Part shown: positions 32,437 to 50,222 of the stretch, one piece after another
Layout: each line of letters begins with the position of its first letter
Position numbering within the stretch: position 1 is the first letter of the stretch
Source: Aquimarina sp. MAR_2010_214
Lineage (GTDB): Bacteria > Bacteroidota > Bacteroidia > Flavobacteriales > Flavobacteriaceae
Length of the DNA stretch: 64,000 bases
Assembly: GCF_002846555.1 (NCBI RefSeq)
Contig: NZ_PJMS01000001.1
Span: 124,001-188,000 of the forward strand
Direction of reading: 5' to 3'
The notes under the pieces: generated by a model
Seen by the model: only the letters and a program-made list of their open reading frames with translations
The model's database searches: none
Told to the model about the DNA's origin: nothing
Program-made: the position numbers and the translations under genes

Positions 32437-32470
32437 TGTAGTTGTTTAGATGTTCACCTCTGTTCAAATT

Positions 32471-33481
32471 TTAATGAGTAGAATCTCTTAAGATCAAGGA
32501 TGTTTTGACAATTTCGGTATTTGCTCTATGATTTTCAACAAAATCGTCTAGTTGATTCACTAAAACCTGAGCGGCTTTTGCTCCTAAATCCTCGGCATGC
32601 TGAGAAACAGTAGTAAGTTTTGGATAAGAATACTTAGACAACAAGCCATCTGTAAACCCAATAACAGAAATATCTTTGGGGATTTCATAACCTAATTTAT
32701 GTGACATATTTATAGTGATAGCAGCAGCCGTTTCATCTAATCCAAGAACCGCATCAATATCATTATTCTTAAGAAACTTCTCTATTTCTTGTTCATTATT
32801 ATCAGAATCATTTACAGATAGCTCTATTAAGGACACCTGATCATTAGCATCTACACCTTCTTTTGCTCCTTCCAAACGCAACTTAGCTACACTTAGACTG
32901 CCAATTGTTGTAATCACCGCTATCTTTTTACAACCTGTATCAATAAGATATTTCGCAGCTGTTTTTGAAGCTTGTTTATCATCTACAATGACTTTATCAC
33001 ATTCGATCTCCTTTGTAACTCTATCAAACATCACTATCGGTACATTATCTCTTTTTAGTTCTTTAAAATGTTCAAATTCGTTTAGAATCTGAGTTTCTTG
33101 ACTTAGAGACACTATAAAACCATCAACACTACTATAGTTTAGCATCTCTACATATTCCACTTCTTTTTTATACGATTCATTTGTAATGCAAGTCACAATT
33201 TTATATCCATTTTCTGAAGCTTCCTTTTCAATTCCATAAAGAGCTTTTGCAAAAAAATGATTGAGAATTTCTGGTAATATTACTCCAATAGTTTTGGTCT
33301 TGTTGCTTTTTAAACTCACCGCTAATGCATTTGGCTTATAATTATAAAAATCAGCAAGTTCATGTACTCTTGTGATCGTTTTTTGGCTAATCTCCGGATC
33401 GTTTTTTAATGATTTTGAAACTGTAGAAATAGAAAGATTTAATTCTCTGGCTAGTTGTTTTAAGGTTACTTTTTTCCTCAT
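32471..33481 (-). CDS. LacI-family transcriptional regulator
   Basis: 336 residues with an N-terminal HTH (VTLKQLARELNLSISTVSKSLKNDPEIS) and hinge, then a periplasmic-binding-protein-like effector domain (TIGVILPEILNHFFAKALYGIEKEA, VPIVMFDRV, AKYLIDTGCKKIAVIT, ISVIGFTDG). Effectors are usually sugars. Being upstream of glpD on the same strand suggests control of glycerol or glycerophosphodiester use, though local autoregulation is equally possible. Confidence 0.92.
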   Translation of the reverse strand: MRKKVTLKQLARELNLSISTVSKSLKNDPEISQKTITRVHELADFYNYKPNALAVSLKSNKTKTIGVILPEILNHFFAKALYGIEKEASENGYKIVTCITNESYKKEVEYVEMLNYSSVDGFIVSLSQETQILNEFEHFKELKRDNVPIVMFDRVTKEIECDKVIVDDKQASKTAAKYLIDTGCKKIAVITTIGSLSVAKLRLEGAKEGVDANDQVSLIELSVNDSDNNEQEIEKFLKNNDIDAVLGLDETAAAITINMSHKLGYEIPKDISVIGFTDGLLSKYSYPKLTTVSQHAEDLGAKAAQVLVNQLDDFVENHRANTEIVKTSLILRDSTH

Positions 33482-33701: not shown

Positions 33702-33762
33702 GTATAACATACCATCAACGACATAATATTGCATGTCTGTAACTCAAAAAAAACAATCCCAT

Positions 33763-34098
33763 ATGTCAAAAACATATTATGACCCTGCCGACTTAAGAAA
33801 ATTTGGAAAAATTACTGAGTGGAGTGAAGAATTAGGTACTAAATTCTTTGATTACTACAGTAAGGTTTTTGAAGAAGGGGCATTAAGTGCCCGAGAAAAA
33901 TCATTAATTGCACTTGCTGTTTCTCATGTTGTAAAATGCCCCTATTGCATTGATGCCTATACTAAAGATGGCCTACAACGTGGGATTACAAAAGAAGAAA
34001 TGATGGAGGCTGTACATGCTGGTGCTGCTATAGAAAGTGGTGCTACTTTGGTTCATGGAGTACAAATGATGAACAAATACGATAAACTTTCTATGTAA
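33763..34098 (+). CDS. AhpD-like (carboxymuconolactone-decarboxylase fold) arsenosugar-biosynthesis-associated peroxidase-like protein
   Basis: 111 residues starting MSKTYYDPADLRKFGKITEW. The active-site pair is KCPYCIDAYTKDG (Cys59 and Cys62), the AhpD thiol motif; in some relatives the second residue is selenocysteine, here it is Cys. An in-frame ATG at 33733 would add ten residues, but the ATG at 33763 matches the usual start. It leads the ars genes; a redox role that feeds or protects the radical-SAM step is inferred from the association. Confidence 0.88.
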   Translation: MSKTYYDPADLRKFGKITEWSEELGTKFFDYYSKVFEEGALSAREKSLIALAVSHVVKCPYCIDAYTKDGLQRGITKEEMMEAVHAGAAIESGATLVHGVQMMNKYDKLSM

Positions 34099-34228
34099 GT
34101 AAATATGGTCTTAATAGGAACAAAACTTTATAAGTCAAGCATAATGGCTAGCATTAAGGCAGGTAAAATCAAAAAAGATCAGCCCCAATTACATTAGCTC
34201 CAAAAGAAATATAACCCAAGAACAGAAG

Positions 34229-35296
34229 ATGTCAGAAGCTAAAACAAAACAATCTTTACATAAACGAAATGATCAGTTGGCAAATGCCAACAGACAATTA
34301 GAAATCCTGAGTAATGGTATTTTTGCTAGTGGTGAGCTTCCTAGGTTTGCTGATAAAATAGCAGAAATTGGTCATACTACTTTACGCCCCAATAAATTGG
34401 AAATCTTACAAATCAATGTAGGATATATGTGCAATCAGGTTTGTGAGCATTGTCATGTGGATGCAGGCCCCGATCGTAAAGAAATTATGACCCGGGAAAC
34501 CATGCAACAATGCCTCGAAGTCATTAAAAAAACCGGCGCACACACTTTAGATTTAACAGGAGGAGCCCCCGAAATGAATCCTAACTTCAGATGGTTTGTA
34601 GAAGAAGCAAGTAAGGCAGGAATTAAAGATTTCATAGTACGTAGTAACCTAACCATTATTAGAGCAAATAAAAAATATTATGACCTTCCTGATTTCTTTA
34701 AAAAACACAACGTACATGTAGTCTCCTCTATGCCCCATTGGACCAGAGGAAAAACAGATAAACAGCGTGGAAATGGTGTTTTTGACAAGTCTATAAAAGC
34801 ACTTCAAGAACTTAATGAAAGGGGGTATGGTATGCCCGGCAGTAGCTTAAGATTAGATTTGGTATACAATCCTTCTGGAGCGTTTTTACCAGGAAATCAG
34901 GCTTCAATGGAAAAAGATTTTAAAAAGGCTTTATTAGAAGATTTCAATATTCAATTTCATCATCTTTTTGCCATTACCAACTTACCCATAAGTAGATTTT
35001 TGGATTATCTAATCGCATCAGAAAACTATGAAGATTATATGTATGCTTTGGTAGAGGCATATAATCCAGAGGCTGTTGCAAATGTAATGTGCACTAATAC
35101 AATTTCTGTAAGCTGGGATGGGTGGTTATATGATTGTGATTTTAATCAGATGTTAGACCTTAAAGTAGCTAGTAAAGTAAAACATATAAGTGAATATAAT
35201 GAAGAATTACTTCAGGACAGAAATATTATTATTTCGCAACATTGTTATGGATGTACGGCGGGAGCAGGAAGTAGTTGCCAAGGAACAGTAGCTTAA
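34229..35296 (+). CDS. arsS: Arsenosugar biosynthesis radical SAM protein ArsS
   Basis: Radical-SAM enzyme that joins the 5'-deoxyadenosyl group to a methylated arsenical, giving 5'-deoxyadenosyl-dimethylarsine, the precursor of arsenosugars. The 4Fe-4S motif is CNQVCEHC (Cys68, Cys72, Cys75), then DLTGGAPEMNP, and the C-terminal DUF3641 region ends with HCYGCTAGAGSSCQG (Cys339, Cys342, Cys350). At 355 residues it has the usual length. Start ATG 34229 has a weak AGAAG upstream. This gene defines the locus. Confidence 0.95.
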   Translation: MSEAKTKQSLHKRNDQLANANRQLEILSNGIFASGELPRFADKIAEIGHTTLRPNKLEILQINVGYMCNQVCEHCHVDAGPDRKEIMTRETMQQCLEVIKKTGAHTLDLTGGAPEMNPNFRWFVEEASKAGIKDFIVRSNLTIIRANKKYYDLPDFFKKHNVHVVSSMPHWTRGKTDKQRGNGVFDKSIKALQELNERGYGMPGSSLRLDLVYNPSGAFLPGNQASMEKDFKKALLEDFNIQFHHLFAITNLPISRFLDYLIASENYEDYMYALVEAYNPEAVANVMCTNTISVSWDGWLYDCDFNQMLDLKVASKVKHISEYNEELLQDRNIIISQHCYGCTAGAGSSCQGTVA

Positions 35297-35314
35297 TATT
35301 TCTCGAGACCCCAA

Positions 35315-35812
35315 ATGAAGATTTTTATACTTTCAATATCATTATTTTTTTCTGTTATAACTAGTGCTCAAAATTCATTAGATGAATTACTACGTCAATA
35401 CAATAACGAAAGCATTCCCTACATTTCGGTTTCAACATTAGAAACTATTCAGGATACAGTATTATTATTAGACGCAAGAGAGAAAAAAGAATATCAGGTA
35501 AGCCATTTAAAAAATGCTGTCCATATAGGATATGACCATTTCAAAATAAAATCTTTTACTCAACAACACATATCAAAAGATCCTTATATAGTTGTCTATT
35601 GCAGTATAGGTATTCGATCAGAAGATATTTCAGAACAACTTAAAAAAGCCGGATATACTAATGTTTATAATTTATATGGAGGTATTTTTGAATGGAAAAA
35701 TAATGACCTCCCCATTCTAAATTCTAATGAAGAATTAACAGATGAAATCCATACATATTCTAAAAAATGGGGTAAATGGTTACATAAAGGAAAAAAAATC
35801 TATTCGAATTGA
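35315..35812 (+). CDS. Secreted rhodanese-like protein
   Basis: 165 residues with an N-terminal signal peptide (MKIFILSISLFFSVITSA), so it is exported to the periplasm. The rhodanese domain has DAREKKEYQVSHLKNAVHIGY and the active-site loop YCSIGIRSE with Cys96. The reaction (sulfur transfer or thiol chemistry) in arsenosugar assembly is unknown. The stop overlaps the TTG start of the next gene by 4 bp, so co-translation is likely. Confidence 0.85.
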   Translation: MKIFILSISLFFSVITSAQNSLDELLRQYNNESIPYISVSTLETIQDTVLLLDAREKKEYQVSHLKNAVHIGYDHFKIKSFTQQHISKDPYIVVYCSIGIRSEDISEQLKKAGYTNVYNLYGGIFEWKNNDLPILNSNEELTDEIHTYSKKWGKWLHKGKKIYSN

Positions 35813-36417
35813 AAGAAAAAAATTTACTTCTAATCTTTACCCGAAATCCAGAATTGGGTAAATGTAAAACGCGATTGGCTGCTACTATTGGAGACCAACC
35901 AGCTTTGGATATTTATAAATTTCTACTACAACACACAGTTGAAATCACCAAAAACCTGAAAGTAGACAAAGAAGTTCATTATTCTGTACAAATAAGAGAT
36001 AATGACTCCTGGAGTCCAGAGATTTATGCCAAAAAACAACAGGTCGGAGATGATTTGGGGCAGCGAATGGAGTACGCTTTTGCAGCAGGTTTTGCTAATG
36101 GATATCAGAACATTATCATTATCGGAAGTGATATGTATGATTTAACTCAAAAAGATATTGAAAATGCATTTCTGGCTTTGGCATCTCATGAGTATGTAAT
36201 TGGTCCTGCAGAAGATGGAGGATACTATTTATTTGGAATGAAATCCTTAAATTCACAAGTTTTTAAAAATAAAACCTGGGGAACAGAAACTGTTCTTAAG
36301 GATACATTAAAAAATATTCAAAAAGAAAACCTAAAATTATTGGAAGAACGCAATGATATTGATTATTATGAAGATATTAAAGACATTACCGTTTTTCAAA
36401 AATTTCTACCAATTTAA
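35809..36417 (+). CDS. TIGR04282-type glycosyltransferase of arsenosugar clusters
   Basis: 202 residues of the DUF2064/TIGR04282 glycosyltransferase-like family (NLLLIFTRNPELGKCKTRLAATIGD, GDDLGQRMEYAF, IIIIGSDMYDLTQKDI, YVIGPAEDGGYYLFGM). The family name associates it with radical SAM/arsenosugar loci. It starts at TTG 35809, overlapping the rhodanese stop by four bases. A second transferase of the complementary TIGR04283 family lies at 45363. The acceptor is unknown; transfer to the ribose of the arsenical is the obvious guess. Confidence 0.85.
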   Translation: MKEKNLLLIFTRNPELGKCKTRLAATIGDQPALDIYKFLLQHTVEITKNLKVDKEVHYSVQIRDNDSWSPEIYAKKQQVGDDLGQRMEYAFAAGFANGYQNIIIIGSDMYDLTQKDIENAFLALASHEYVIGPAEDGGYYLFGMKSLNSQVFKNKTWGTETVLKDTLKNIQKENLKLLEERNDIDYYEDIKDITVFQKFLPI

Positions 36418-36555
36418 TTTTTTGATGACGTATAATTAAATTGAATTATTTTTTTCAAGATTAAGGCAAAATATTTTAACAAAAAAATTGAGGAAAACAA
36501 ACTATTTAATGCGTAATTAGAAAGTTAAATTGGTAATATAAGCTAACAAAAAAAT

Positions 36556-37368
36556 ATGATCAAATACATCGAAGAAACCACAGAATTCCTTCAGAAAAAA
36601 GGCTTTGAAAATCCTGAAATAGGAATCATACTAGGAACTGGATTAGGGCAATTAATTAATGAAATAGACATCATTAAAGAAGTAAGTTATAATCACATTC
36701 CTAATTTCCCAACAGCTACTGTAGAATTTCATAAAGGAAAATTAATTTATGGAAAACTAGAAGGTAAAAATGTAGTAGTCATGCAAGGACGTTTTCATCT
36801 TTATGAAGGATATTCGCTTCAGGATGTTACCTATCCGGTACGTATCATGCAAAAACTAGGGATCAAAACTTTATTAGTTTCTAATGCTTCTGGAGCTGTT
36901 AATCTCAATTTCAAAAAAGGAGAATTAATGCTTATCGATGATCACATTAACTTACAAGGAAGCTCGCCTCTGGCTTTTAAAGGTGTAGAACAATTAGGAA
37001 GTCGCTTTACAGATATGAGTGCTCCTTATGATGCAGATATAAATGCAAAACTCGAATCTATTGCCAGAGAAAACAACATCAATCTTCATAAAGGAGTATA
37101 TGCCTCTGTAGTAGGTCCTCAACTAGAGACTCGGGCAGAGTATCGTTATCTTAAAATTATCGGTGCCGATGCAGTAGGAATGAGTACCGTGCCCGAAGTG
37201 ATTGTAGCTAATCACCTGGATCTGTCTGTAGCTGCAGTTTCTGTTCTTACTGACGAATGTGATCCCGATGATCTAAAACCCATAAATATCGATGAAATTA
37301 TTGCAATGGCAGGAAAAGCAGAACCAGAAATGATACTGTTATTCAAAGCATTGATAAAATCATTGTAA
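36556..37368 (+). CDS. Purine-nucleoside phosphorylase
   Basis: Phosphorolyses nucleosides to base and ribose-1-phosphate. 270 residues with GIILGTGLGQL, HKGKLIYG, VVMQGRFHLYEGY, VSNASGAVN, VVGPQLETRAEYR and GMSTVPEVIVANH. In the base-specificity pair, Glu191 is conserved and Asp233 (VLTDECDPD) sits where mammalian PNP has Asn243. That substitution is known to allow 6-aminopurines, which fits removal of adenine from a 5'-deoxyadenosyl-arsenical made by ArsS. It lies between TIGR04282 and arsM, which supports this use, but salvage of other nucleosides is not excluded. Confidence 0.9.
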   Translation: MIKYIEETTEFLQKKGFENPEIGIILGTGLGQLINEIDIIKEVSYNHIPNFPTATVEFHKGKLIYGKLEGKNVVVMQGRFHLYEGYSLQDVTYPVRIMQKLGIKTLLVSNASGAVNLNFKKGELMLIDDHINLQGSSPLAFKGVEQLGSRFTDMSAPYDADINAKLESIARENNINLHKGVYASVVGPQLETRAEYRYLKIIGADAVGMSTVPEVIVANHLDLSVAAVSVLTDECDPDDLKPINIDEIIAMAGKAEPEMILLFKALIKSL

Positions 37369-37465
37369 GTCGTGATGAAAGTTTTTTTCTCACTTTTCGA
37401 CAAAACTTATTATAACCCAAAATAACTTATATTTCCTTCTTAACTGGAAAGACAAAAAATACTAT

Positions 37466-38434
37466 ATGAGCTACTTAAATACCACTCACGATGTGTATAA
37501 AGAAGCGGCATTAACCCCCGATGTAGGTTTATGCTGTACCACTAACCCAATCTGGGAACTACCCGGGCTTAAAATTCCTAAAATTATGCAGGAAATGAAT
37601 TATGGCTGTGGTAGTACGGTAAATGCACGTGATTTGACTAATTCTCCAAAAACCTTATATGTAGGAGTTGGAGGTGGAATGGAATTATTACAATTCTCTT
37701 ATTTTTCTCGTCAAAAAGGTGGTGTTATAGGAATTGATGTTGTTAATGAAATGTTGGAAGCTTCTCGTAAGAATTTTGAAGAAGCCGAAGCTCAAAATGA
37801 CTGGTTTAAAAGTGAGTTCGTTGATCTAAGGTATGGAGATGCTCTTAATCTTCCTGTAGAAGATAACAGTATTGATGTTGCTGCACAAAATTGTTTGTTT
37901 AATATTTTTAAAGCAGATGATCTTCGAAAAGCAATCGAAGAAATGTATCGAGTATTAAAACCACACGGAAGATTGGTTATGAGTGATCCAACTTGTGAGC
38001 AACCGATGAATGATACATTGCGTAATGACGAGCGATTAAGAGCTTTATGTCTAAGTGGAAGTTTACCTATTGCAGAATATGTAAAAGCGTTAACCGATGT
38101 AGGTTTTGGTACTATCGAAATCAGAGCACGTAAACCTTATAGAATTTTGGATCCAAAACATTATGATACTGATGAATTGATCTACATAGAGTCTATAGAA
38201 GTAGCTGCAATCAAAGATCCAATGCCAGAAGATGGCCCCTGTATATTTACAGGAAAAGCAGCGATATACTTTGGAGATGAAGATTATTTTGATGATAAAA
38301 AAGGCCACGTATTACTTAAGAATCAACCAATAGCCATATGTGATAAGACCGCTGGTGCTATAGCAGATTTAAACAGAGATGATATATTTATTAGTGAATC
38401 TACCTACCATTATGATGGAGGTGGATGCTGTTAA
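37466..38434 (+). CDS. arsM: Arsenite S-adenosylmethionine methyltransferase ArsM (arsenosugar type)
   Basis: Methylates trivalent arsenic, giving the dimethylated substrate for ArsS. 322 residues: an N-terminal cysteine block GLCCTTNPIWELPG (Cys23, Cys24) and NYGCGSTVNA (Cys48), a SAM-binding Rossmann core (TLYVGVGGGMELLQFSYFSRQKGGVIGIDVV, DAAQNCLFN-type region with VAAQNCLFNIF), MSDPTCEQP, and a C-terminal YHYDGGGCC tail. The cysteine set fits As(III) binding. Followed by a terminator at 38462. Confidence 0.93.
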   Translation: MSYLNTTHDVYKEAALTPDVGLCCTTNPIWELPGLKIPKIMQEMNYGCGSTVNARDLTNSPKTLYVGVGGGMELLQFSYFSRQKGGVIGIDVVNEMLEASRKNFEEAEAQNDWFKSEFVDLRYGDALNLPVEDNSIDVAAQNCLFNIFKADDLRKAIEEMYRVLKPHGRLVMSDPTCEQPMNDTLRNDERLRALCLSGSLPIAEYVKALTDVGFGTIEIRARKPYRILDPKHYDTDELIYIESIEVAAIKDPMPEDGPCIFTGKAAIYFGDEDYFDDKKGHVLLKNQPIAICDKTAGAIADLNRDDIFISESTYHYDGGGCC

Positions 38435-38461
38435 AAGCGAGGGCTAATTAACTATAACTAG

Positions 38462-38502
38462 AGAAGTCGAAGACAAGTATTTGCCTTCGGCTTCTTTTTT
38501 TG
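38462..38502 (+). terminator. Terminator after arsM
   Basis: A 14-bp stem GAAGTCGAAGACAA / TTGCCTTCGGCTTC (one mismatch, one G-T) with GTAT loop and a T run. The in-frame TTG at 38481 of the transporter reading frame falls inside it, so that frame must start later. Confidence 0.82.
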
Positions 38503-38579
38503 TTTTCTTTCATAAATACTGTAAGGTAGCCCAATACAATACGTCGGATTATGGACAACTAATTCTTAACTGGATACTA

Positions 38580-39698
38580 ATGATATTGATTCTTCTTTTT
38601 ATTGCTGCTTGTTTCTTGGCTTATAGTAATGGTGCAAATGATAATTTTAAAGGCGTTGCCACACTCTTCGGAAGCGGAACTACTAATTACAAAAAAGCAA
38701 TAAACTGGGCTACAATAACAACATTTTCAGGTTCTGTGGCTGCTATCTTTTTAGCTGAAGAATTGGTAAAAAACTTTTCTGGAAAAGGACTGGTTCCTAA
38801 TGAATTAATCCAGATGCCAATTTTTGCAATCTCTATTGCTCTTGGAGCTGCTTTCACTGTGTTTATTGCCACAAGAATAGGAATGCCAATATCAACAACT
38901 CATAGCCTTGTAGGCGCTCTTTTTGGCGCCGGAGTAATGGCCATTGGTACCGAGTTTAATTTTGCAAAACTTGGGAAAACGTTTTTAGTTCCTCTTATTG
39001 TAAGTCCTTTAATGGCAGCTGTATTAAGTTTATTATTATATATCATTTTTAGATATATCAGGAAAAAACTTAATATCACAAAAAACAGTGGTATCTATAT
39101 TGATAAAAAGCAAGAAGCAGAAGCGATAACAGTTTCAGCAAATCATATGAATACAGTTGCTACAGAAACCAAGATTACAGCTTCTATCCACCACACCAAA
39201 GTAGAGACCTATAACGGAAAATTATTAGGTGTTAATTCACAGAAAATATTAGACAGTTTGCATTACCTAAGTGCCGGGATTGTTAGTTTTGCACGTGGAC
39301 TTAACGATACTCCTAAGATTGTAGGGTTACTATTAATCATTAATACTTTGGATATTAAATGGGGAATGATTGCTGTTGCTATAACCATGGCATTAGGAGG
39401 ACTCATAAATGCCAAAAAAGTTGGTGTTATTATGAGTAAAAAAATCACACCTATGAATTCTGGGCAAGGGTTTACCGCTAACATGATTACAGGTTTATTA
39501 GTAACCACAGCAAGTATTCATGGTTTACCTGTTTCTACAACACATGTATCTGTTGGTTCTATATTTGGAATCGGTACTGTAACCAAAAAAGCAAACCCTA
39601 AGATGATTTCTAAAATATTATTATCCTGGGTACTTACTCTTCCGATAGCAGCTATTGCTAGCGGATTATTATTTAAGTTACTTCAAAATATAGTATAA
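38580..39698 (+). CDS. Inorganic phosphate transporter, PiT family
   Basis: A 372-residue multi-spanning permease with both PHO4 signature repeats: CFLAYSNGANDNFKGVATLFGSG near the N-terminus and ISFARGLNDTPKIVGLL in the second half, each with ISTTHSLVGALFG or VSTTHVSVGSIFG. PiT carriers move phosphate and also arsenate. Start ATG 38580 is set by the terminator upstream. Placement inside the ars locus suggests it supplies arsenate or phosphate, but phosphate uptake alone is also possible. Confidence 0.9.
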   Translation: MILILLFIAACFLAYSNGANDNFKGVATLFGSGTTNYKKAINWATITTFSGSVAAIFLAEELVKNFSGKGLVPNELIQMPIFAISIALGAAFTVFIATRIGMPISTTHSLVGALFGAGVMAIGTEFNFAKLGKTFLVPLIVSPLMAAVLSLLLYIIFRYIRKKLNITKNSGIYIDKKQEAEAITVSANHMNTVATETKITASIHHTKVETYNGKLLGVNSQKILDSLHYLSAGIVSFARGLNDTPKIVGLLLIINTLDIKWGMIAVAITMALGGLINAKKVGVIMSKKITPMNSGQGFTANMITGLLVTTASIHGLPVSTTHVSVGSIFGIGTVTKKANPKMISKILLSWVLTLPIAAIASGLLFKLLQNIV

Positions 39699-40683
39699 TT
39701 GAATTTCAAAATTTATGAAGTTTAATTAAATCCTTAAGAGCTTTAAAATCAATAAATTGTTATCTTTAGAAAGCAAATCATTTTAAAGATAAAATATCAT
39801 GGATAGAAGACAATGGCTAAAATCCACTTCGTTGGGAGGGAGTTTTGCATTATTAGGAGGTATAGGTATTACTAATGCCCTGACATTAGAAGAAATCAAC
39901 AAATTCAATCCCAGACCGCTATCAAAACGCATACGATTAAGTTCTAATGAGAATCCTTATGGCCCTTCAGAAAGAGTAAGAAAAGCTATCATAGCTGCTT
40001 TTGATCATAGCTGTCGATATCCATATGCATATGCCGATGAACTAGCCACAATTTTAGCTCAAAAAGAAGGAGTAACCAAAGATCATATTATCATCTGCGG
40101 TGGTTCTACAGAAGGCTTAAAAATCACTGGGCTCACTTTTGCTGCAAATGGAGGAGAAATTATTGCAGGCAAACCCACTTTTCTGGCAATGATGACCTAT
40201 GCCAAGCAATGGGGAGCAGAGGTAAATTGGGTACCAGTTGGTGACGATAAAGGATATGATATGGAAGAGATCGAAAAACGAATTTCTTCAAAAACAAAAC
40301 TAGTTTTTCTTTGTAACCCCAATAATCCAACGTCTACTATTCTCCCTTCAGAAAAACTAATAGATTTTTGTGATGCTATTAGTAATAAGACTATTTTATT
40401 TAGTGATGAAGCTTATTATGATTATATAGAAGATCCTGACTACCCTTCGATGGTCGAACTCGTAAAACAAGAAAAAGATGTCATCGTATCCAGAACATTT
40501 TCAAAAGTATATGGTATGGCAGGTCTTCGTATTGGTTATCTTATTGCAAAACCAGCTTTAGCAAAAAAACTTCGAAGAAATATGGTCGCCTATAGTAATG
40601 TTCCTGCTATTGCTGCAGCTAAAGAAGCACTAAATGACAAGGAGTTTTATAGCTTTAGTCTACAAAAAACCCGGGAAGCAAAA

Positions 40684-40691
40684 GATATGAT
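40684..40691 (+). repeat. Left target-site duplication (8 bp) of the IS1595-family insertion
   Basis: GATATGAT here is repeated at 41745-41752, flanking the insertion. Eight-base duplications are characteristic of IS1595 elements. Confidence 0.93.
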
Positions 40692-40704
40692 GGCTAAGTT
40701 CTAA
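40692..40704 (+). repeat. Left terminal inverted repeat of the IS element
   Basis: GGCTAAGTTCTAA, perfect inverse of 41732-41744. The TAA at its end is the stop that truncates the aminotransferase. Confidence 0.93.
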
Positions 40705-40743
40705 TTAGAATATGTTTTATCTTTACTTTATAAAAACGGAGAA

Positions 40744-41742
40744 ATGATACCAGAAGATTTTAGAGATTTTTTCATTAGTTCATCGGCTTTGGTTCAATCA
40801 GAAATTGTTTCCACATTATTGGAGATCTCTACTGAGGGTTCAGCCCTGATTGATAGCAATCAGAGTAAAGCCATAAGCTGTCCTCATTGTAAGTGCAATA
40901 AAATTAAGGCTAATGGTAAGCTCAAAGGAGTACAGCGCTATGTTTGTAATACTTGTCATAAAAACTTTAGTGAAACTACCGGTAAGTTCTGGTACAACCT
41001 CAAGAAGAAAGACAAAGTTAATCGTTATTTATTCTGTTTACTCTCTGGATATAGTATTCGCAAGAGTGCCAAAGAAACAGGGATTTCTATTCAGACTTCT
41101 TTTGATTGGAGGCACAAATTACTTGTCTCCTTTGGGAGCGTAAGTGTGGATGAATTCCAAGGAATCCTAGAGAGTGATGATCTTTTCTTTGCTTACTCTG
41201 AAAAAGGGAATCGAAATTTGGATCGTCCTGCTAGAAAACGTGGCGCAAAGGCAAGTAAAGCTGGTCTCAGTAATGAAAAAGTAGCTGTGATAGCCAGTTG
41301 TGACCGATCAGGGAACAAAGATTTCAAAGTAGCTACCAGAGGTCGCATTAGTAAAAGTGACTTGGAGACTATATTACAAGGGAAGTTGGCTAAAGTAGAA
41401 ACCCTTTGTAGCGACAGTCACAGAAGCTATACTGCATTTGCAAAAGACAAGAAGGTAGCACACAAAAAATTTAATGCTTCGAAGGGTCAAAGAGCTGTTG
41501 ACAAAATATATCACGTACAAAATGTGAATAATATGGATATGCGTCTAAGGAAATTTATGGAGCCCTTCAATGGAGTGGCAACAAAATACCTTCAGAATTA
41601 TCTGAATTGGTTTTTAGTCTTAGAAAAAATAAAAAATTCAACCAGTAAAATGGCAACCGTAGCAGCTATAGCCTTTGCTTCCAATACTGCCTGGATGGAA
41701 TTTAAAAACATAGTAGTAAATAATATGCTTTTTAGAACTTAG
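40744..41742 (+). CDS. IS1595-family (ISXO2-like) transposase
   Basis: 332-residue transposase with an N-terminal zinc ribbon (CPHC at 46-49 and CNTC at 68-71), a helix-turn-helix (YSIRKSAKETGISIQTSFDWRHKLL) and the ISXO2-like catalytic domain: first acidic residue in ILESDDLFFAY, second in LCSDSHRSYTAF, then NVNNMDMRLRKFMEPFNGVATKYLQNYLNWF, consistent with the DDNK arrangement. The stop lies 2 bp from the element's right end, as expected for a compact IS. Intact frame, so it is probably still active. Confidence 0.94.
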   Translation: MIPEDFRDFFISSSALVQSEIVSTLLEISTEGSALIDSNQSKAISCPHCKCNKIKANGKLKGVQRYVCNTCHKNFSETTGKFWYNLKKKDKVNRYLFCLLSGYSIRKSAKETGISIQTSFDWRHKLLVSFGSVSVDEFQGILESDDLFFAYSEKGNRNLDRPARKRGAKASKAGLSNEKVAVIASCDRSGNKDFKVATRGRISKSDLETILQGKLAKVETLCSDSHRSYTAFAKDKKVAHKKFNASKGQRAVDKIYHVQNVNNMDMRLRKFMEPFNGVATKYLQNYLNWFLVLEKIKNSTSKMATVAAIAFASNTAWMEFKNIVVNNMLFRT

Positions 41743-41752
41743 CCGATATGAT
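41732..41752 (+). repeat. Right terminal inverted repeat (41732-41744) and right target duplication (41745-41752)
   Basis: TTAGAACTTAGCC is the exact reverse complement of the left end; GATATGAT then repeats the left target copy. Together they define the insertion boundary to the base. Confidence 0.93.
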
Positions 41753-42236
41753 TTATAAAACTCTGGATACTTTTAAACTCCCCTATGTAAAATCGCATAC
41801 CAACTTTATCTTCTTCAAGTCTGGAAAAGATATACGCACATTACATAAAGAAGTGTTAGAAAAAGGAGTTTTAATAGGTCGACCATTTCCTCCTTTCTTT
41901 GATTGGTGTAGAATAAGTACAGGAACTATCGAGGAAGTTACTCTATTCACACAAGCATTAGCCAGTCTCTATAAGTAGTTTATACAATATCATTACTGAC
42001 TATATGTAATATTTAAAGTTTCCCTTTTTTTTCAAAGAACCAATTGTACAACGGATTCTTATTCGCATATAGAAAATTAAAACTTCTGATTAACTAATTA
42101 TAAACACATTATAACCAAATTCTATTTTGCAAAGAAGAAAAGTATATCCAGTTTAGTTTTGAGTAGAATCTTCATCTTACTCAGAGTTTTATCCAATAGG
42201 AAATGTATCTTAGTTAAATTAAAAAGTGATCGTCTA

Positions 42237-43148
42237 ATGAAGAGCTTATTTTTTATTGTATTAATTTGTGTATTTGTTGCCTGCGGCGGAAGTAAAAAAG
42301 CTATTCAGAATACTACTCCCGATGAGCACACAACAGCCAAAGAAAAAATAAATTCTCCTAAAATCACTGTTCCAGTAGAGGAAAAAGCACCAGATACAGC
42401 GATTGAAAAAGTAGAACCAGAAGAGGAAGAAGAAGTTGAGGAAGCTGCACAACAACAAAAAGAAACGATTACAACAAAGGAAAATCCAAAAGCCGATATT
42501 CTTGAAGTATTTAACCATCAATCATGGAATGATTTGCTACAGAAACACGTCTCTGATAATGGTACAGTAAACTATATTGGTTTTAAACAAGACCATCTGG
42601 CACTTAAATCTTATTTAGCTGCATTACGTAAAAATATCCCCGCAGAAAACTGGAACAAATCTGATATATTAGCCTATTGGATGAATGTATATAATGCATT
42701 TACTATAAAATTAATCCTCGACAATTATCCTTTAAAAAGCATCAAAGACATTAAGAATCCATGGGATTTGCGTTTTTTTAAACTAGGAAACAAATGGTAT
42801 ACTCTTAATGATGTAGAACATAGAATTTTAAGAAAAATGAGAGATCCCAGAATTCATTTTGGGATCAATTGCGCCTCTATTTCTTGCCCTCAGTTATTAA
42901 ACAAAGCGTTCACTGCTCAAAATGTGGATAGTGAATTAGAAAAATTAGCCATTGACTTCATTAATGATCCAAAACGTAATACAATAACTTCTAATAGTCT
43001 TCAACTTTCTAAAATATTTACCTGGTTTGCAAAAGATTTTAAAACTGAAGGTTCTTTAATTCATTTTTTAAATAAATACTCCAAAATTGCTATTAATACT
43101 AATGCAAAAAAAAGCTTCAAAAAATACAATTGGAGTTTAAATGAATAG
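42237..43148 (+). CDS. DUF547 lipoprotein with acidic linker
   Basis: 303 residues: lipoprotein signal (MKSLFFIVLICVFVACGGS), an acidic Glu-rich linker (residues about 55-85, EEEEEVEEAAQQQ) and a DUF547 domain (FNHQSWNDLLQKHVSDNGTVNYIGFK, LAYWMNVYNAFTIKLILDNYPLKSIKDI, HFGINCASISCPQLL). The paired Cys in NCASISCP are shared by all family members here. ATG 42237 is preferred over an in-frame ATG at 42159, which would put extra residues before the signal peptide. One of three DUF547 genes in a row; the biochemical function of the domain is unknown. Confidence 0.88.
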   Translation: MKSLFFIVLICVFVACGGSKKAIQNTTPDEHTTAKEKINSPKITVPVEEKAPDTAIEKVEPEEEEEVEEAAQQQKETITTKENPKADILEVFNHQSWNDLLQKHVSDNGTVNYIGFKQDHLALKSYLAALRKNIPAENWNKSDILAYWMNVYNAFTIKLILDNYPLKSIKDIKNPWDLRFFKLGNKWYTLNDVEHRILRKMRDPRIHFGINCASISCPQLLNKAFTAQNVDSELEKLAIDFINDPKRNTITSNSLQLSKIFTWFAKDFKTEGSLIHFLNKYSKIAINTNAKKSFKKYNWSLNE

Positions 43149-43432
43149 TAAAATGTTATGGTATTTTATTCATTTCTTACCTGAATTTTTTATTCTGAAA
43201 AAAATTAGAGAAAATAAGTAGTTCATTATGGCTTTTCAAAAAGTTAAAGTTAACCTAAAAAAACTATCTCTAATACTAACCGAAACACTTAATAAACCAC
43301 AAACCCTTTTCATCGTTAAACATTAAAAAACAGTTGTTTATACTTATTTTTCAATCATAATCCTCATGCTTACCCTATATTTTTTATTCTTGGTTATGAA
43401 TTCAAAAATCAACTGAAACTAAATTTTACCTG
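43149..43432 (+). other. AT-rich spacer with no gene
   Basis: No reading frame of note on either strand; only the start of the upstream block shared by the duplicated genes lies at its right end. Confidence 0.6.
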
Positions 43433-43523
43433 TAAGTTCATTTCCTGATTTTCTACTAAAAACATAAATCTTAAAAGAAGAATTAATAAAAATTAAATAA
43501 TAACCATTCTAAAACCTAAAAAC
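43433..43523 (+). repeat. Upstream block, copy 1, of the duplicated DUF547 genes
   Basis: TAAGTTCATT, then CTAAAAACATAAATCTTAAA and TTAATAAAAATTAAATAAT run up to the ATG, matching copy 2 at 44441-44532 with few changes. The match may begin earlier, from a shared TGGTTAT near 43391. Presumably carries the promoter. Confidence 0.8.
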
Positions 43524-44273
43524 ATGAAAGCTCCAAAAATTATATTAGTGCTATTTGCTATACTATCAATAAATCAAATGCAATCACAAAACAGTTTTGA
43601 TCACATCATTTGGGATCAAGCATTATTACTAAATGTATCTGATGATGGAAAAGTAGATTATAACGGATTTATGAGAGACAGCTCTCAATTATACCGATAT
43701 TTTAAACAACTTTCTGAAAATCCACCTCAAGAAAATTGGACAAGAGAAGAGAAATTAGCGTATTGGATCAATGCCTATAATGCATATACCATAAAACTTG
43801 TAATAGATAGTTACCCTTTAAAAAGTATTAAAGATCTTGATGATCCTTGGGGTAAAAAATTCTTCAAAATTGATGGAGTATGGCATAGTTTAGGTGAACT
43901 AGAACATAAAATTTTAAGAAAATTTGGAGATCCCAGAATTCACTTTGCTATCAACTGTGCATCAATTTCTTGCCCTGTGGTATGGAACAGAGCATATACT
44001 GCCGATAACCTTAATACTGCTCTGGATCATCAAACTGAAAAGTTTATTAATGACCCTACCCGAAACACTATTACAAAAGATAAAGTCATAGTTTCGAAAA
44101 TATTTACCTGGTATAAAAAAGACTTTAAAGTAAATGGTGGAAATGTTAAAGATTTTATCAATCGATATGCTTCAATAAAAATTGATAAACAATCAAAAAA
44201 AGGATACAAAGAATATAATTGGAAGCTAAATGAGCATTCAAATGAGTATCCTGCAGCAGTTGTACTAGATTAG
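43524..44273 (+). CDS. DUF547 protein, tandem copy 1
   Basis: 249 residues with a secretion signal (MKAPKIILVLFAILSINQMQSQ), no lipobox, and a DUF547 domain (WDQALLLNVSDDGKVDYNGFM, EKLAYWINAYNAYTIKLVIDSYPLKSIKDLDDPWG, HFAINCASISCPVVWN, SKIFTWYKKDFKVNGG). The next gene is a close paralogue, differing at about 31 of 249 positions by eye. The whole unit including about 90 bp upstream is duplicated. Function unknown; probably periplasmic. Confidence 0.88.
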   Translation: MKAPKIILVLFAILSINQMQSQNSFDHIIWDQALLLNVSDDGKVDYNGFMRDSSQLYRYFKQLSENPPQENWTREEKLAYWINAYNAYTIKLVIDSYPLKSIKDLDDPWGKKFFKIDGVWHSLGELEHKILRKFGDPRIHFAINCASISCPVVWNRAYTADNLNTALDHQTEKFINDPTRNTITKDKVIVSKIFTWYKKDFKVNGGNVKDFINRYASIKIDKQSKKGYKEYNWKLNEHSNEYPAAVVLD

Positions 44274-44440
44274 AAAACAAAAAAGAAATAGGGTAGAGTC
44301 AAAATTAACTGTTGTGAAATAAAACAAATGTATTGTACTTTAAGTTTTATGAAATAAATTGGTTAGACAATGATCTCTTAATATCTGTTTTAATTATACA
44401 ATTGGTTATCTTAAAATCAATAGAATCAGCATTCTATTAG

Positions 44441-44532
44441 TAAGTTCATTCTCTAATTTTCTGCTAAAAACATAAATCTTAAATAGACGAGTTAATAAAA
44501 ATTAAATAATACCTATTCTAAAGTTTAAGAAA
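44441..44532 (+). repeat. Upstream block, copy 2, of the duplicated DUF547 genes
   Basis: Matches 43433-43523 in order and spacing to the ATG. Start-to-start distance of the two genes is 1,009 bp. Confidence 0.8.
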
Positions 44533-45282
44533 ATGAAAGTTCCGAAAATTATATTAATGCTATTTGCTATACTATCAATAAATCAGATGCAATCACAAAC
44601 CAATTTTGATCACACCGTTTGGGATCTACAATTACTGCTAAATGTATCTGAAGACGGAAAAGTAGATTATAATGGATTTATGAACGATAGCTCTCAATTG
44701 TATCGATATTTTAAACAACTTTCTGAAAATCCGCCTCAGGAAAATTGGGCAAGAGAAGAAAAATTAGCGTATTGGATCAATGCCTATAATGCATATACGA
44801 TAAAACTTGTAATAGATAGTTATCCCATAAAAAGTATTAAAGATCTTGACGACCCTTGGGGCAAAAAATTCTTCAAAATTGATGGAATATGGCATAGTTT
44901 AGGCGAGTTAGAACATAAAATCTTAAGAAAATTTGGAGATCCCAGAATTCACTTTGCTATCAACTGTGCGTCAATTTCTTGCCCTAGAATTTGGAATAGA
45001 GCTTATACTGCTAACAATGTAAATAATGCTTTAGACTATCAAACTAAAAAGTTTATTAATGACCCTTCTTTTAACACTATTACAAAAGACAAAGTTATAG
45101 TTTCGAAAATATTTACCTGGTATAAAAAAGATTTTAGAGTAAATGGTGGAAATGTTAAAGATTTTATTAATAGATATTCTGCAATAAAAATTGATAAACA
45201 ATCAAAAAAAGGATACAAAGAATACAATTGGAAGCTAAATGAACAATCCAAAAAGGATCCTGCTGCGATTTCACTAGATTAA
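44533..45282 (+). CDS. DUF547 protein, tandem copy 2
   Basis: 249 residues with the same signal (MKVPKIILMLFAILSINQMQSQ) and domain as the preceding gene, including HFAINCASISCPRIWN. Differences cluster in the N-terminal region, residues around 26-35, and near the C-terminus. Conservation of the cysteine block and of the frame shows both copies are under selection or very recent. Followed by the TIGR04283 transferase gene. Confidence 0.88.
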   Translation: MKVPKIILMLFAILSINQMQSQTNFDHTVWDLQLLLNVSEDGKVDYNGFMNDSSQLYRYFKQLSENPPQENWAREEKLAYWINAYNAYTIKLVIDSYPIKSIKDLDDPWGKKFFKIDGIWHSLGELEHKILRKFGDPRIHFAINCASISCPRIWNRAYTANNVNNALDYQTKKFINDPSFNTITKDKVIVSKIFTWYKKDFRVNGGNVKDFINRYSAIKIDKQSKKGYKEYNWKLNEQSKKDPAAISLD

Positions 45283-45362
45283 GAAACCAAAAAGAAAATA
45301 AAGAAATTTAGGTTGGAGTTTTAAATGAGTAAATTTGCCATATAAATGAATTCATATCAAAA

Positions 45363-46073
45363 TTGAAAATATCTATTATCATCCCCATCTTAAATGAAGC
45401 AGAAACGATTTCTAATTTGGTTTCTCATATAATAAGATACTGTAACGCGAAGGATAACATAAAAGAAATAATCATTGTTGATGGAGGAAGTGATGATGGC
45501 TCTCGGGATGTTGTAAATACTATTATAGAAAATGAAACAATCGCAATTAGGCTTATCATATCAAAAAAAGGTCGTGCCAAACAATTAAATGCAGGTGGTA
45601 ATGTTGCAAAAGGCGATATCCTGTACTTTCTTCATGCAGATTCTTTTCCTCCTCAAGGTTTTGATACCGATATTCTAAAAGAAGTTAAAAAAGGAAATAA
45701 TGCAGGTTGTTTCAGAATGAAGTTTGATTCTAATCATTGGTGGCTACGTTTTCTTGGATGGCTTACACAATTTAGGAGTAAACGATGTCGAGGTGGTGAT
45801 CAAAGCCAATTTATAACAACTTCTCTTTTTGAACAAATTGATGGATATGATGAATCGTTTATAGTATATGAAGATAATGATTTGGTAGATCGTCTTTTTG
45901 CTATAAATCAATTTGTAATCATTCCTAAACATGTAATTACTTCAGCCAGACGATATGAAGAGATTGGTATTTGGCGCTTGCAGTATCACTTTTTGAATAT
46001 TCATATGCGAAGATGGATGGGAGCTTCTTCTGAAGATTTATATCGATATTATAAAGAAAAGGTTGTTTCTTAA
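45363..46073 (+). CDS. TIGR04283-type glycosyltransferase of arsenosugar clusters
   Basis: 236-residue GT2-fold transferase: ISIIIPILNEAETISNLVSHI, EIIIVDGGSDDGSRDVV, GRAKQLNAGGNVAKGDILYFLHADSFPP (DxD-like HAD), and WGDQSQF-type RGGDQSQFI. It belongs to the family named for radical SAM/arsenosugar clusters and pairs with the TIGR04282 enzyme at 35809. The start is TTG at 45363. It ends the + strand ars run, converging on the outer-membrane module. Confidence 0.86.
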   Translation: MKISIIIPILNEAETISNLVSHIIRYCNAKDNIKEIIIVDGGSDDGSRDVVNTIIENETIAIRLIISKKGRAKQLNAGGNVAKGDILYFLHADSFPPQGFDTDILKEVKKGNNAGCFRMKFDSNHWWLRFLGWLTQFRSKRCRGGDQSQFITTSLFEQIDGYDESFIVYEDNDLVDRLFAINQFVIIPKHVITSARRYEEIGIWRLQYHFLNIHMRRWMGASSEDLYRYYKEKVVS

Positions 46074-46184: not shown

Positions 46185-47444
46185 TTAAAAATACTGCCCG
46201 ATCCCAAATACAAATCCTTTGGTAGCGTTGTCTGTAACTCCATGCCCATAATCGATTCTAAAAATGGCATTAAAAATTCGTTTATGCATAAAACGTAAAC
46301 CCACACCGGGATATAATCTAAAATTTTGAGAATCTCCAAAATCCCCAAAATCTCCCCCGGGATTGCGCCAACTTCCTCCGTCAACAAAAACATTACTTTG
46401 CAATACAAACCAATCTTTCTCATACAGAGTGTGTCTATACTCGGTATTAAGTACAACTACCCCCGTTCCTCTATCAATTGTATTACCAACACCTCTAATA
46501 TTAAGATTATTATCTACTGCAAATGGTGCAAATGGAGAGTCATCATTGCTCGCTAATCCTAAGCGTAACCTAGAAGCCCAATTTCCTTTTTTACCTATTC
46601 TTTTATGGTATAAAAAATCATTCCACCCGATAATAAAATCTGGTAAGACGTTTTCGGTACTAATCACATATTGTAAATTTAATGTGCTTTTAAATCCAGA
46701 TACATATTGGTAATCATAATCCAAATTATCGTATTCATATATTAACTTATATAATAGCTTATTAACATCAAAATCTTGTGGTATTCCTGCTTCAGTAGCA
46801 CCACGCTTATATGTATAATCTTCATTAAAGTAATTGACTCCCAACTCAATACGATTCTGAAGATTAAATTGATATAACCCTAATACTTCATACGAGGTAT
46901 TGTTATACTTATAATCCGCCGTACCACTCTCTAGAAACACAGGTTCTTCTGTGGTAATATTACTGTAATTAAATGCCACTCCTAACTTCTTACTGAATAA
47001 AAATGGTGCTCTTAGATTTGCTCCATAAGAACTATAAATATCATTTTGATACAATCCCCCCAGAACTATATTTCGACCAAATAAGTTAAACTCATACAAC
47101 CCCACTCTAAAGGCAAATTCATCATTATTAGTCGTATAAAGATTGGCAGAAGGAATAATAGTAAAATTTTCTTCTATTCCATAAACTACCTGGTAGCCTT
47201 CTTCTTTTTCATGAACCTGATAGTAGGCATGTGCGATAGCCGGCAATCTCTTTAACCTCTTAATATCCTTCTCGATCTGCAAAGAATCTAAGGCTTTTCC
47301 TTGCTTAATATTAGTGAGTCTTGTTATAGCTGATGTTTTGGTCTTTTTGTTTCCTTGTATACGAATTTCGGAAACCACTTTATTTTGCCCAAAGGCGAAA
47401 CAGGTTGTAAAAAATATGAGAAAAGCAATTCGGGAAAGATTCAT
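46185..47444 (-). CDS. BamA/TamA-type outer-membrane beta-barrel with a POTRA-like domain
   Basis: 419 residues with a signal peptide (ending TCFAFGQ), a POTRA-like segment (VVSEIRIQGNKKTKTSAITRLTNIKQGKALDSLQIEKDIKRLKRLPAIAHAY compactly to residue 90), then a surface-antigen-like barrel ending DNATKGFVFGIGQYF. A single POTRA and a terminal Phe are typical of small Omp85 relatives. Its ATG overlaps the stop of the upstream hydrolase by 4 bp, so the two are co-translated. Confidence 0.83.
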   Translation of the reverse strand: MNLSRIAFLIFFTTCFAFGQNKVVSEIRIQGNKKTKTSAITRLTNIKQGKALDSLQIEKDIKRLKRLPAIAHAYYQVHEKEEGYQVVYGIEENFTIIPSANLYTTNNDEFAFRVGLYEFNLFGRNIVLGGLYQNDIYSSYGANLRAPFLFSKKLGVAFNYSNITTEEPVFLESGTADYKYNNTSYEVLGLYQFNLQNRIELGVNYFNEDYTYKRGATEAGIPQDFDVNKLLYKLIYEYDNLDYDYQYVSGFKSTLNLQYVISTENVLPDFIIGWNDFLYHKRIGKKGNWASRLRLGLASNDDSPFAPFAVDNNLNIRGVGNTIDRGTGVVVLNTEYRHTLYEKDWFVLQSNVFVDGGSWRNPGGDFGDFGDSQNFRLYPGVGLRFMHKRIFNAIFRIDYGHGVTDNATKGFVFGIGQYF

Positions 47445-48445: not shown

Positions 48446-48506
48446 AGCAATTTTTCAATTGTTTATTTTGTTACTGTTGAAAAGTACAATTTTTATGTTC
48501 AATTTT

Positions 48507-49421: not shown

Positions 49422-49511
49422 TATTGCGGTTTTTTATATAAGTATCCTCTTTCAAAGTAGCTTTGAAAAAAATCTTATTTGTTGTTAAAGATTATTTTGA
49501 AAAAATTGTGA

Positions 49512-50222
49512 TTATTTGACTTGATTTAAGCTCCAATCATAGGAGTAATATGATACTTTGGCATTTGTCGGAATTTTCTCTTTTCGGAATTTATTTACAA
49601 AATCCACTTCTGACCCGTTTTGAGTAAAATCTACTTTATACCATTCAAAAATTTGTGACAACTGTACTTTATTACCCTTCACTTTAATAAAATTAGGGTT
49701 ATTTAAAGCTTTTACCGTTTGGCGTTGTAATTGAGCTTCTAATGTTGAAGGCTTATAAGCCGAAGGTATAATCGGAGGACATCCAAGACCTGCACATACT
49801 AACACAAAGTGAAATCGAGCTTCATTAGGAAATTTTTTGCGAAGGATTTTATTTTCTAAATCATTGAGTGTTGTTTTTTTACCTCCTAATGTATAAGTCG
49901 TTTTATCAAAAAAACCTTTGATGTCTAATGGTGATTTTGTTGGATATTTATCTACTATCCCCTTTATTACTGCTAAATTATAAGCATTGATATAAAAAGC
50001 CTGATAGGTTTTAACGTCACTTGTAGTAACTTTTACATTTGCAGCTATTTTTAATAATTCTTCTAATGAAGATGGGTCCTTTTTAATGCTTTTATAATGA
50101 ATCCTTCCGTTAGATACATAGGTTTTAAAAAAGTCATCTGCTTTAGTAAAAAACGCAGTACTACTTTGCGAAAACCCAAATTGAATTGAGAGAAGAACCA
50201 ATAGAATTGTTATTTTTTTCAT
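49512..50222 (-). CDS. DUF547 protein, divergent fourth copy
   Basis: 236 residues with a signal peptide (MKKITILLVLLSIQFGFSQ) and a DUF547 domain, more divergent than the tandem pair but keeping the cysteine block (HFVLVCAGLGCPPIIPS) and YQAFYINAYNLAVIKGIVDKYP. It heads the minus-strand run barrel-GH113-BamA-type, showing the DUF547 family associates with this envelope module as well as with the arsenosugar run. Confidence 0.88.
   Translation of the reverse strand: MKKITILLVLLSIQFGFSQSSTAFFTKADDFFKTYVSNGRIHYKSIKKDPSSLEELLKIAANVKVTTSDVKTYQAFYINAYNLAVIKGIVDKYPTKSPLDIKGFFDKTTYTLGGKKTTLNDLENKILRKKFPNEARFHFVLVCAGLGCPPIIPSAYKPSTLEAQLQRQTVKALNNPNFIKVKGNKVQLSQIFEWYKVDFTQNGSEVDFVNKFRKEKIPTNAKVSYYSYDWSLNQVK

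Follow-up and report, generated by a model that had tools for sequence, protein, structure and literature searches.

A plus-strand gene run at positions 33733-46073 of a 64,000-nucleotide stretch of the Aquimarina sp. MAR_2010_214 genome (Flavobacteriales; Flavobacteriaceae) is best read, from its sequence, as a locus for arsenosugar-type biosynthesis. The genome is a single contig of 5.98 Mb, and the stretch, called the window here, covers its positions 124001-188000; coordinates below are those of the window. The reading is suggested by the presence of the arsenite methyltransferase ArsM and the radical S-adenosylmethionine (SAM) enzyme ArsS above curated cut-offs in one operon, and by a gene order that recurs in many flavobacteria: AhpD-ArsS-rhodanese-TIGR04282-PNP-ArsM-DUF547-TIGR04283, where PNP is a purine nucleoside phosphorylase. 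At about even chances, the genes would form a two-unit organoarsenical (arsenosugar-type) operon in which PNP, TIGR04282 and TIGR04283 act in that order after ArsM and ArsS. The PNP, which an earlier note on this DNA had only listed, is the most informative gene of the locus. New here is a split of PNPs between an Ile/Val type and a His type, and this split tracks arsS.

Gene content and proposed pathway

Every gene named in the earlier note was found, all on the plus strand, with scores from curated profiles. Each operon gene passes at least one curated cut-off, the cut aminotransferase excepted. The "short gaps or overlaps" of that note describe the rhodanese and TIGR04282 genes, which overlap by 4 bases, and not the surroundings of the DUF547 genes, where gaps of 375 and 259 bases separate the three genes and 180 bases precede the first. 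The features are as follows.

33733..34098, plus: AhpD-like peroxidase-like protein with a CPYC motif (TIGR04169, 196 bits; cut-off 120)
34229..35296, plus: ArsS, radical SAM enzyme with CxxxCxxC and a DUF3641 C-terminal domain (TIGR04167, 440 bits; cut-off 300)
35315..35812, plus: exported rhodanese with a CxxGxR active-site loop (NF045521, 209 bits; cut-off 145)
35809..36417, plus: TIGR04282/DUF2064 protein, predicted sugar-1-phosphate nucleotidyltransferase (TIGR04282, 218 bits; cut-off 134)
36556..37368, plus: trimeric-type PNP with Asp233 and Ile245, predicted 5'-substituted-adenosine phosphorylase (TIGR01700, 297.1 bits; cut-off 293.35)
37466..38434, plus: ArsM arsenite methyltransferase (NF038099, 574 bits; cut-off 400)
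38481..39698, plus: PiT/PHO4 inorganic phosphate transporter family (PF01384, 225 bits; cut-off 33.7)
39799..40704, plus: PRK09105-like pyridoxal phosphate-dependent aminotransferase, N-terminal piece with a twin-Arg N-terminus, its frame entering the insertion sequence
40692..41744, plus: IS1595-family insertion, flanked on both sides by an 8-base direct repeat (40684-40691; 41745-41752), with its transposase at 40744-41742
41748..41978, plus: C-terminal piece of the interrupted aminotransferase
42159..43148, plus: DUF547 gene one, with a lipobox-like N-terminus past an internal Met, read by eye (PF04784, 89 bits; cut-off 27)
43524..44273, plus: DUF547 gene two, with a signal-peptide-like N-terminus; structure modelled (PF04784, 98 bits; cut-off 27)
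44533..45282, plus: DUF547 gene three, tandem duplicate of gene two (PF04784, 98 bits; cut-off 27)
45363..46073, plus: TIGR04283 family 2 glycosyltransferase (TIGR04283, 227 bits; cut-off 182)
49512..50222, minus: fourth DUF547 gene, part of a conserved block of its own next to the locus (PF04784, 83 bits; cut-off 27)

The sequence shows three marks of an arsenosugar locus: ArsM (NF038099), ArsS with its CxxxCxxC motif (TIGR04167), and the TIGR04282 and TIGR04283 transferases. ArsS is the sole TIGR04167 match above cut-off in the genome and is 94% identical to the ArsS of Aquimarina algiphila; the CxxxCxxC motif is kept in 92 of 92 relatives.

By the chemistry of their families, the proteins of the first unit (AhpD-like protein and ArsS, with ArsM) would turn arsenite and SAM into an arsenonucleoside, which we take to be 5'-deoxy-5'-dimethylarsinoyl-adenosine. 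The second unit (rhodanese, TIGR04282, PNP, DUF547 and TIGR04283) would process it. The PNP, changed at the residue that binds the 5'-OH, may cleave it to adenine and 5-deoxy-5-dimethylarsinoyl-ribose-1-phosphate; the TIGR04282 protein, judging by fold and signature, may convert this sugar-1-phosphate to a nucleoside diphosphate sugar; and the TIGR04283 protein could transfer the arsenosugar to an acceptor of glycerol type or to a lipid. Outside the cytoplasm, the product would be acted on by the exported rhodanese and by the DUF547 proteins, which are exported as well and paired with TIGR04283. The earlier claim of a full route to glycosylated arsenosugars is upheld in outline; the word "full" stays conjectural, as the transferase substrates are predicted and the module also occurs without arsS, and few arsS neighbourhoods outside the order hold the whole set.

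Work on the ArsM-ArsS arsenosugar pathway of Synechocystis is reportedly that of Xue (2019) and Cheng (2021). Seaweed arsenic is primarily in the form of arsenosugars, according to an excerpt of one source (PMC5478658). In the excerpted accounts of the Synechocystis pathway, arsenic is methylated and adenosylated by members of the same ArsM and ArsS families, and no enzyme past ArsS is named (PMC8552651; PMC12159101). The window operon differs by the addition of the PNP, a nucleotidyltransferase-like protein, an exported rhodanese and DUF547 proteins. The arsinothricin cluster arsQML likewise combines ArsM with a radical SAM enzyme that forms a C-As bond, although, unlike for the window operon, no phosphorylase is named in the excerpt (PMC8552651). 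Candidates are offered here for two steps past ArsS, along with a single-residue handle on specificity (Ile245), and the pathway's unassigned middle steps become open to laboratory testing.

The altered phosphorylase and its TIGR04282 neighbour

Ordinary trimeric PNPs have Asn or Asp together with His where the window PNP has Asp233 and Ile245. By alignment, Ile245 replaces the His that binds the nucleoside 5'-OH, presumably His257 of human PNP. ArsS yields an adenosine that carries an arsenical group in place of its 5'-OH, and loss of the 5'-OH ligand would therefore be expected in a phosphorylase for this product. Excerpts of two papers describe the hydrogen bond from the PNP His to the 5'-OH (PMC3214022; PMC12648331). 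Because Ile245 replaces this His, which a TIGR01700 member should have, the window PNP is placed in the nucleoside phosphorylase superfamily PF01048 (170.8 bits; cut-off 25.1) and is not filed as inosine/guanosine-specific. At the other site, calf and human PNP gain adenosine cleavage through Asn243Asp (PMC6274182), which is also found in a double mutant with Glu201Gln (PMC2799393).

The Ile/Val type is constant in arsenic loci. It was found in 61/61 ars-locus PNP rows (the window included; five of the 65 ars-locus PNP open reading frames (ORFs) are left out as short, cut or second in their locus), in 34/34 rows of a second batch of loci and in 19/19 of a third, with some genes counted in more than one batch. 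His is kept in 68 of the 70 comparison PNPs: in all 30 best-scoring ones (L191, L192 and L229-L256, which include second copies from three arsS-positive genomes) and in 38 of 40 further ones, which were hand-picked from the remaining listed matches and include one arsS-positive genome. The two exceptions (G074 and G344) lack arsS and have DUF547. Within a sample of the family (76 genomes, with the PNPs of all 59 that have one read), 38/38 arsS-positive genomes carry the Ile/Val type versus 4/38 arsS-negative ones (G133, G251, G373 and G391, all carriers of the module); the His type occurs in 17 arsS-negative genomes, and four arsS-positive ones have it as an additional PNP. Over all genomes read, those outside the family included, the figures are 42/42 versus 8/71, the 71 having been chosen partly for their DUF547 genes and the G390 PNP being left out. 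A tree made by a quick method, which carries a long-branch warning and includes 25 of 60 ars-locus PNPs, puts all 68 His rows on one side of a branch (Shimodaira-Hasegawa-like approximate likelihood ratio test, SH-aLRT, 100%), with the change between the two types not polarised.

Of four arsS loci from Proteobacteria, three (Acinetobacter, Cupriavidus and B. glumae) hold a phosphorylase of a different family, methylthioadenosine phosphorylase (MTAP), whose substrate is likewise a 5'-substituted adenosine. MTAP resembles the window PNP at both sites: its adenine site has Asp, and its 5' site a small hydrophobic residue (presumably Asp220 and Val233 in the human enzyme); at the PNP His position, three MTAP rows have Val (two) or Ala (one). 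The likeness would be a convergence, since the window PNP scores 297 bits with TIGR01700 versus 94 with the MTAP profile. The host genome also holds a DeoD enzyme, on which its purine salvage can rest.

The TIGR04282 protein, named a glycosyltransferase in the database, looks more like a nucleotidyltransferase, which casts doubt on the name. Its model has the CofC-like nucleotidyltransferase fold (CofC/IspD/TarI), a fold in common with CofC/FbiD and 3-phosphoglycerate guanylyltransferase, and its K-T-R-L signature belongs to CofC as well. Identity with CofC itself, the 2-phospho-L-lactate guanylyltransferase, was rejected (TIGR03552, 31.1 bits; cut-off 105). Relatives in loci L034-L125 are of two kinds: K-[TS]-R-L occurs in 62/68 high-scoring ones, none of which adjoins a SusC cluster, whereas 33 of 35 low-scoring ones lack it, 33 have NKGSP and 23 adjoin SusC. 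The cassette in question, seen by arsS in many flavobacteria (L040, L042, L043, L045, L053, L257, L285 and others) and not in the window, comprises a divergent TIGR04282 gene, a SusC-like TonB receptor, a SusD-like lipoprotein, a membrane protein (446 amino acids, no Pfam match, symporter-like by reading) and a metallophosphoesterase; it is a candidate for the import of organoarsenicals or of compounds from which they are made.

Association with arsS and alternative functions

Gene content was compared across 92 arsS loci (those of 12 genomes and the best 80 of at least 592 named loci; one of the 80 records is titled Chlorobiota and the other names are those of Flavobacteriaceae), with families labelled by home-made profiles that were built on flavobacterial genes and may miss distant members. 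The AhpD-like gene is present in 91 loci, TIGR04282 in 87, PNP in 65, rhodanese in 60, ArsM in 54, DUF547 in 45, TIGR04283 in 36 and PiT in 7; across seven families, all ORFs lie on the same strand as arsS except one rhodanese and one DUF547. The aminotransferase occurs in 2/92 loci. Among 395 genomes of the order, DUF547 is present in 41/43 with arsS versus 19/352 without, and within the family in 36/38 versus 10/38, although these genomes share ancestry and Fisher tests of the association overstate independence. In 24 of the 43 arsS-positive genomes, DUF547 and arsS are no more than 15 kb apart. On these counts DUF547 is a true partner of arsS, though often at another place, and the aminotransferase is not; of the two genes whose association with arsS had been in question, only DUF547 is borne out.

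Farther away the set thins out. Among 38 arsS neighbourhoods from other orders and classes of Bacteroidota (L166, with no ArsS by profile, and L164, of 10 bases, left out), the AhpD-like gene is found in 29, ArsM in 6 and PiT in 1. In Proteobacteria, a 9.1-kb Acinetobacter locus holds ArsS, DUF547, TIGR04283, TIGR04282, a methyltransferase, PiT, MTAP and a sterol-desaturase-family gene; Cupriavidus and B. glumae loci hold ArsS, TIGR04283, DUF547 and MTAP; and a Thiodictyon locus holds ArsS, TIGR04282 and a TIGR04283-like transferase, with no phosphorylase listed. PiT thus recurs in arsS loci of Acinetobacter (annotated) and Cupriavidus (home-made profile). Two proteobacterial arsS loci (L228 and L133) have a second radical SAM gene next to DUF547, TrsS-like and in L133 below cut-off, and in L149, past arsS and two short ORFs, there is a further ArsS-like match that scores lower (124 bits with the home-made profile).

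The two units can also be separated. A rhodanese-TIGR04282-PNP-TIGR04283 run stands apart from AhpD-ArsS in G109, G201, G271, G286 and G296 (the last without rhodanese), with DUF547 adjoining in G109, G286 and G296 and ArsM within the run in G109 and G271; comparable runs, whole or in part, are apart from arsS in G102, G167, G382, G013, G188, G218, G150, G291 and G350. Two arsS-negative genomes (G114 and G119) have rhodanese-TIGR04282-fatty-acid-hydroxylase-DUF547-TIGR04283 without PNP. Complete rhodanese-TIGR04282-PNP-DUF547-TIGR04283 runs were seen at L212, L300, L301 and L302, in genomes without ArsS above cut-off; the genes past the rhodanese in L212 are an ADP-ribosylglycohydrolase and an APH-family gene.

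Several of these and other results weigh against the two-unit arsenosugar operon. In the 38 distant neighbourhoods TIGR04282 was found in 16, TIGR04283 in 9, DUF547 in 7, rhodanese in 2 and PNP, by home-made profile, in none, and these counts make the full operon a flavobacterial arrangement. The gene tables of the Hymenobacter, Thiodictyon and Pseudanabaena arsS loci, which are incomplete, list no nucleoside phosphorylase up to 10 kb away. At least 14 of the 43 arsS-positive genomes of the order have the second unit, in whole or in part, at a site other than that of arsS, and the run of rhodanese, TIGR04282, PNP, DUF547 and TIGR04283 occurs in the arsS-negative family members G133, G251, G373 and G391, which have no ArsS above cut-off and no arsS or arsM in the stretch read around the run. 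The tie between the downstream unit and arsS is strong without being absolute, which is the chief argument against a purely arsenical function. At the level of single proteins, Asp233 is common to every PNP row compared, the His type included, and so is not diagnostic; the window PNP falls below the MTAP cut-off (TIGR01694, 94.1 bits; cut-off 274.85), and MTAP identity was rejected; and mannosylglycerate synthase ties in Z score with the IspD/TarI/GlmU matches of the TIGR04282 model. None of the three PF01048 matches in the genome is typed as a methylthioadenosine nucleosidase, so 5'-deoxyadenosine or methylthioadenosine could equally be the PNP substrate. The absence of PNP from distant loci and the frequent separation of the second unit lower confidence in the two-unit arsenosugar operon.

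The strongest alternative, though we consider it rather unlikely, is that the second unit is a route of wider use, which takes SAM-derived 5-substituted riboses (from the 5'-deoxyadenosine of radical SAM enzymes or from methylthioadenosine) through phosphorolysis, nucleotide activation and glycosyl transfer, with ArsS a frequent client and not the reason for the module. It would account for the module in the four arsS-negative family members, for PNP with TIGR04282 in the arsS-negative G014 and G090 outside the family and for the separated units; at the 5' site of the PNP, Ile would go with any 5' group other than a hydroxyl, and the lack of a typed methylthioadenosine nucleosidase fits as well. 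However, the Ile/Val PNP follows arsS closely in the family sample (38/38 versus 4/38), and ArsM sits inside the unit in L214, L217, L288 and L289, where arsS is far off. A broader version is put forward tentatively, as a possibility: the rhodanese-TIGR04282-PNP-DUF547-TIGR04283 set could be a general bacterial pathway from SAM-derived 5'-modified adenosines to nucleotide-activated 5-modified riboses and on to a cell-surface acceptor, with the PNP a new specificity class (5'-deoxy-5'-substituted adenosine phosphorylase), MTAP recruited to this step in Proteobacteria, and arsenosugars the main and not the sole product.

In the two-unit arsenosugar operon, the end of the route would fall to TIGR04283 and DUF547. 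The four DUF547 genes of the window lie within 8.1 kb and are the only DUF547 matches in the genome, so abundance does not explain three of them side by side; genes two and three form a tandem duplicate pair, 87.8% identical in DNA across 869 bases. DUF547 is within 1.5 kb of TIGR04283 for 37/37 ORFs of the 92 loci and for 20/23 in a separate set of 27 genomes. A hydrophobic N-region was scored in 50/50 DUF547, 57/60 rhodanese and 3/36 TIGR04283 ORFs by a crude test that is not specific, since 29/91 AhpD-like proteins, which we take to be cytoplasmic, also score. A lipobox-like motif occurs in 20/50 DUF547 ORFs, and the rhodanese loop motif in 58/60 relatives. A fatty-acid-hydroxylase-family gene is present in 21 loci, often just ahead of DUF547 (PF04116 for one member tested), and sterol-desaturase-family genes are found in the Acinetobacter and Thiodictyon arsS loci. 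The pairing of a cytoplasmic transferase with an exported DUF547 protein, together with these genes, suggests a lipid-linked or surface product. The DUF547 model is of good quality (predicted local distance difference test score, pLDDT, 91.3), and no solved fold stood out among its structure matches, cysteine peptidase and transglutaminase folds being considered. DUF547, a family of unknown function, is thereby linked to one glycosyltransferase family and to export.

It is improbable that DUF547 and TIGR04283 are instead an independent cell-envelope glycoconjugate pair and mere neighbours of the arsenic genes. DUF547 does turn up without an ArsS match, as in six Pseudoalteromonas plasmid records, and 9/11 plasmid records with a DUF547 match come from genera without an ArsS match, in a search that missed the DUF547 annotated in B. 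glumae. A second TIGR04283-DUF547 pair, divergently transcribed, apart from arsS and less similar to the operon copies, is present in L213, L216, L218, L220, L223 and L224. Against this stand the genome counts (41/43 versus 19/352), the presence of DUF547 in the arsS loci of Acinetobacter, Cupriavidus and B. glumae, and the 48 plasmid records with TIGR04283 (46 Burkholderia, Acinetobacter, Cupriavidus), whose genera also have plasmid ArsS (51 records). More doubtful still is a PNP that is an ordinary purine enzyme or an arsenate-reduction actor, merely co-transcribed: PNP, bearing a dithiol group, reduces arsenate in vitro in one excerpted account (PMC12608789), most genomes with a trimeric PNP have a single one and PNP was found in none of the 38 distant neighbourhoods, yet the change sits at the 5' site, which is not obviously needed for arsenate reduction, the Ile copy stays in the arsS locus where a genome has both types, the host has DeoD, and MTAP, of a different phosphorylase family, is present in three proteobacterial arsS loci.

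The broken aminotransferase and flanking genes

The earlier note had counted the aminotransferase among the parts of the locus, which the gene-content comparison does not bear out: the gene is not part of the arsS system and is a lineage accessory, broken here. The IS1595-family element at 40692-41744, whose termini are imperfect inverted repeats (19/23 bases), splits it into frames of 301 (N-terminal) and 76 (C-terminal) amino acids.

Upstream of the operon, at 30733-33481, a glycerophosphate-oxidase/dehydrogenase-like gene and a LacI-family regulator are divergent. Some loci have, likewise upstream, a member of a 337-amino-acid family to which this regulator may belong, and in Hymenobacter a LacI gene follows arsS. 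Downstream, a minus-strand block at 46185-50222 contains BamA-like and glycosidase-like genes (labels by reading only) and the fourth DUF547 gene; blocks of this type recur by the module in L212, L214, L215, L217 and L219, even with arsS elsewhere.

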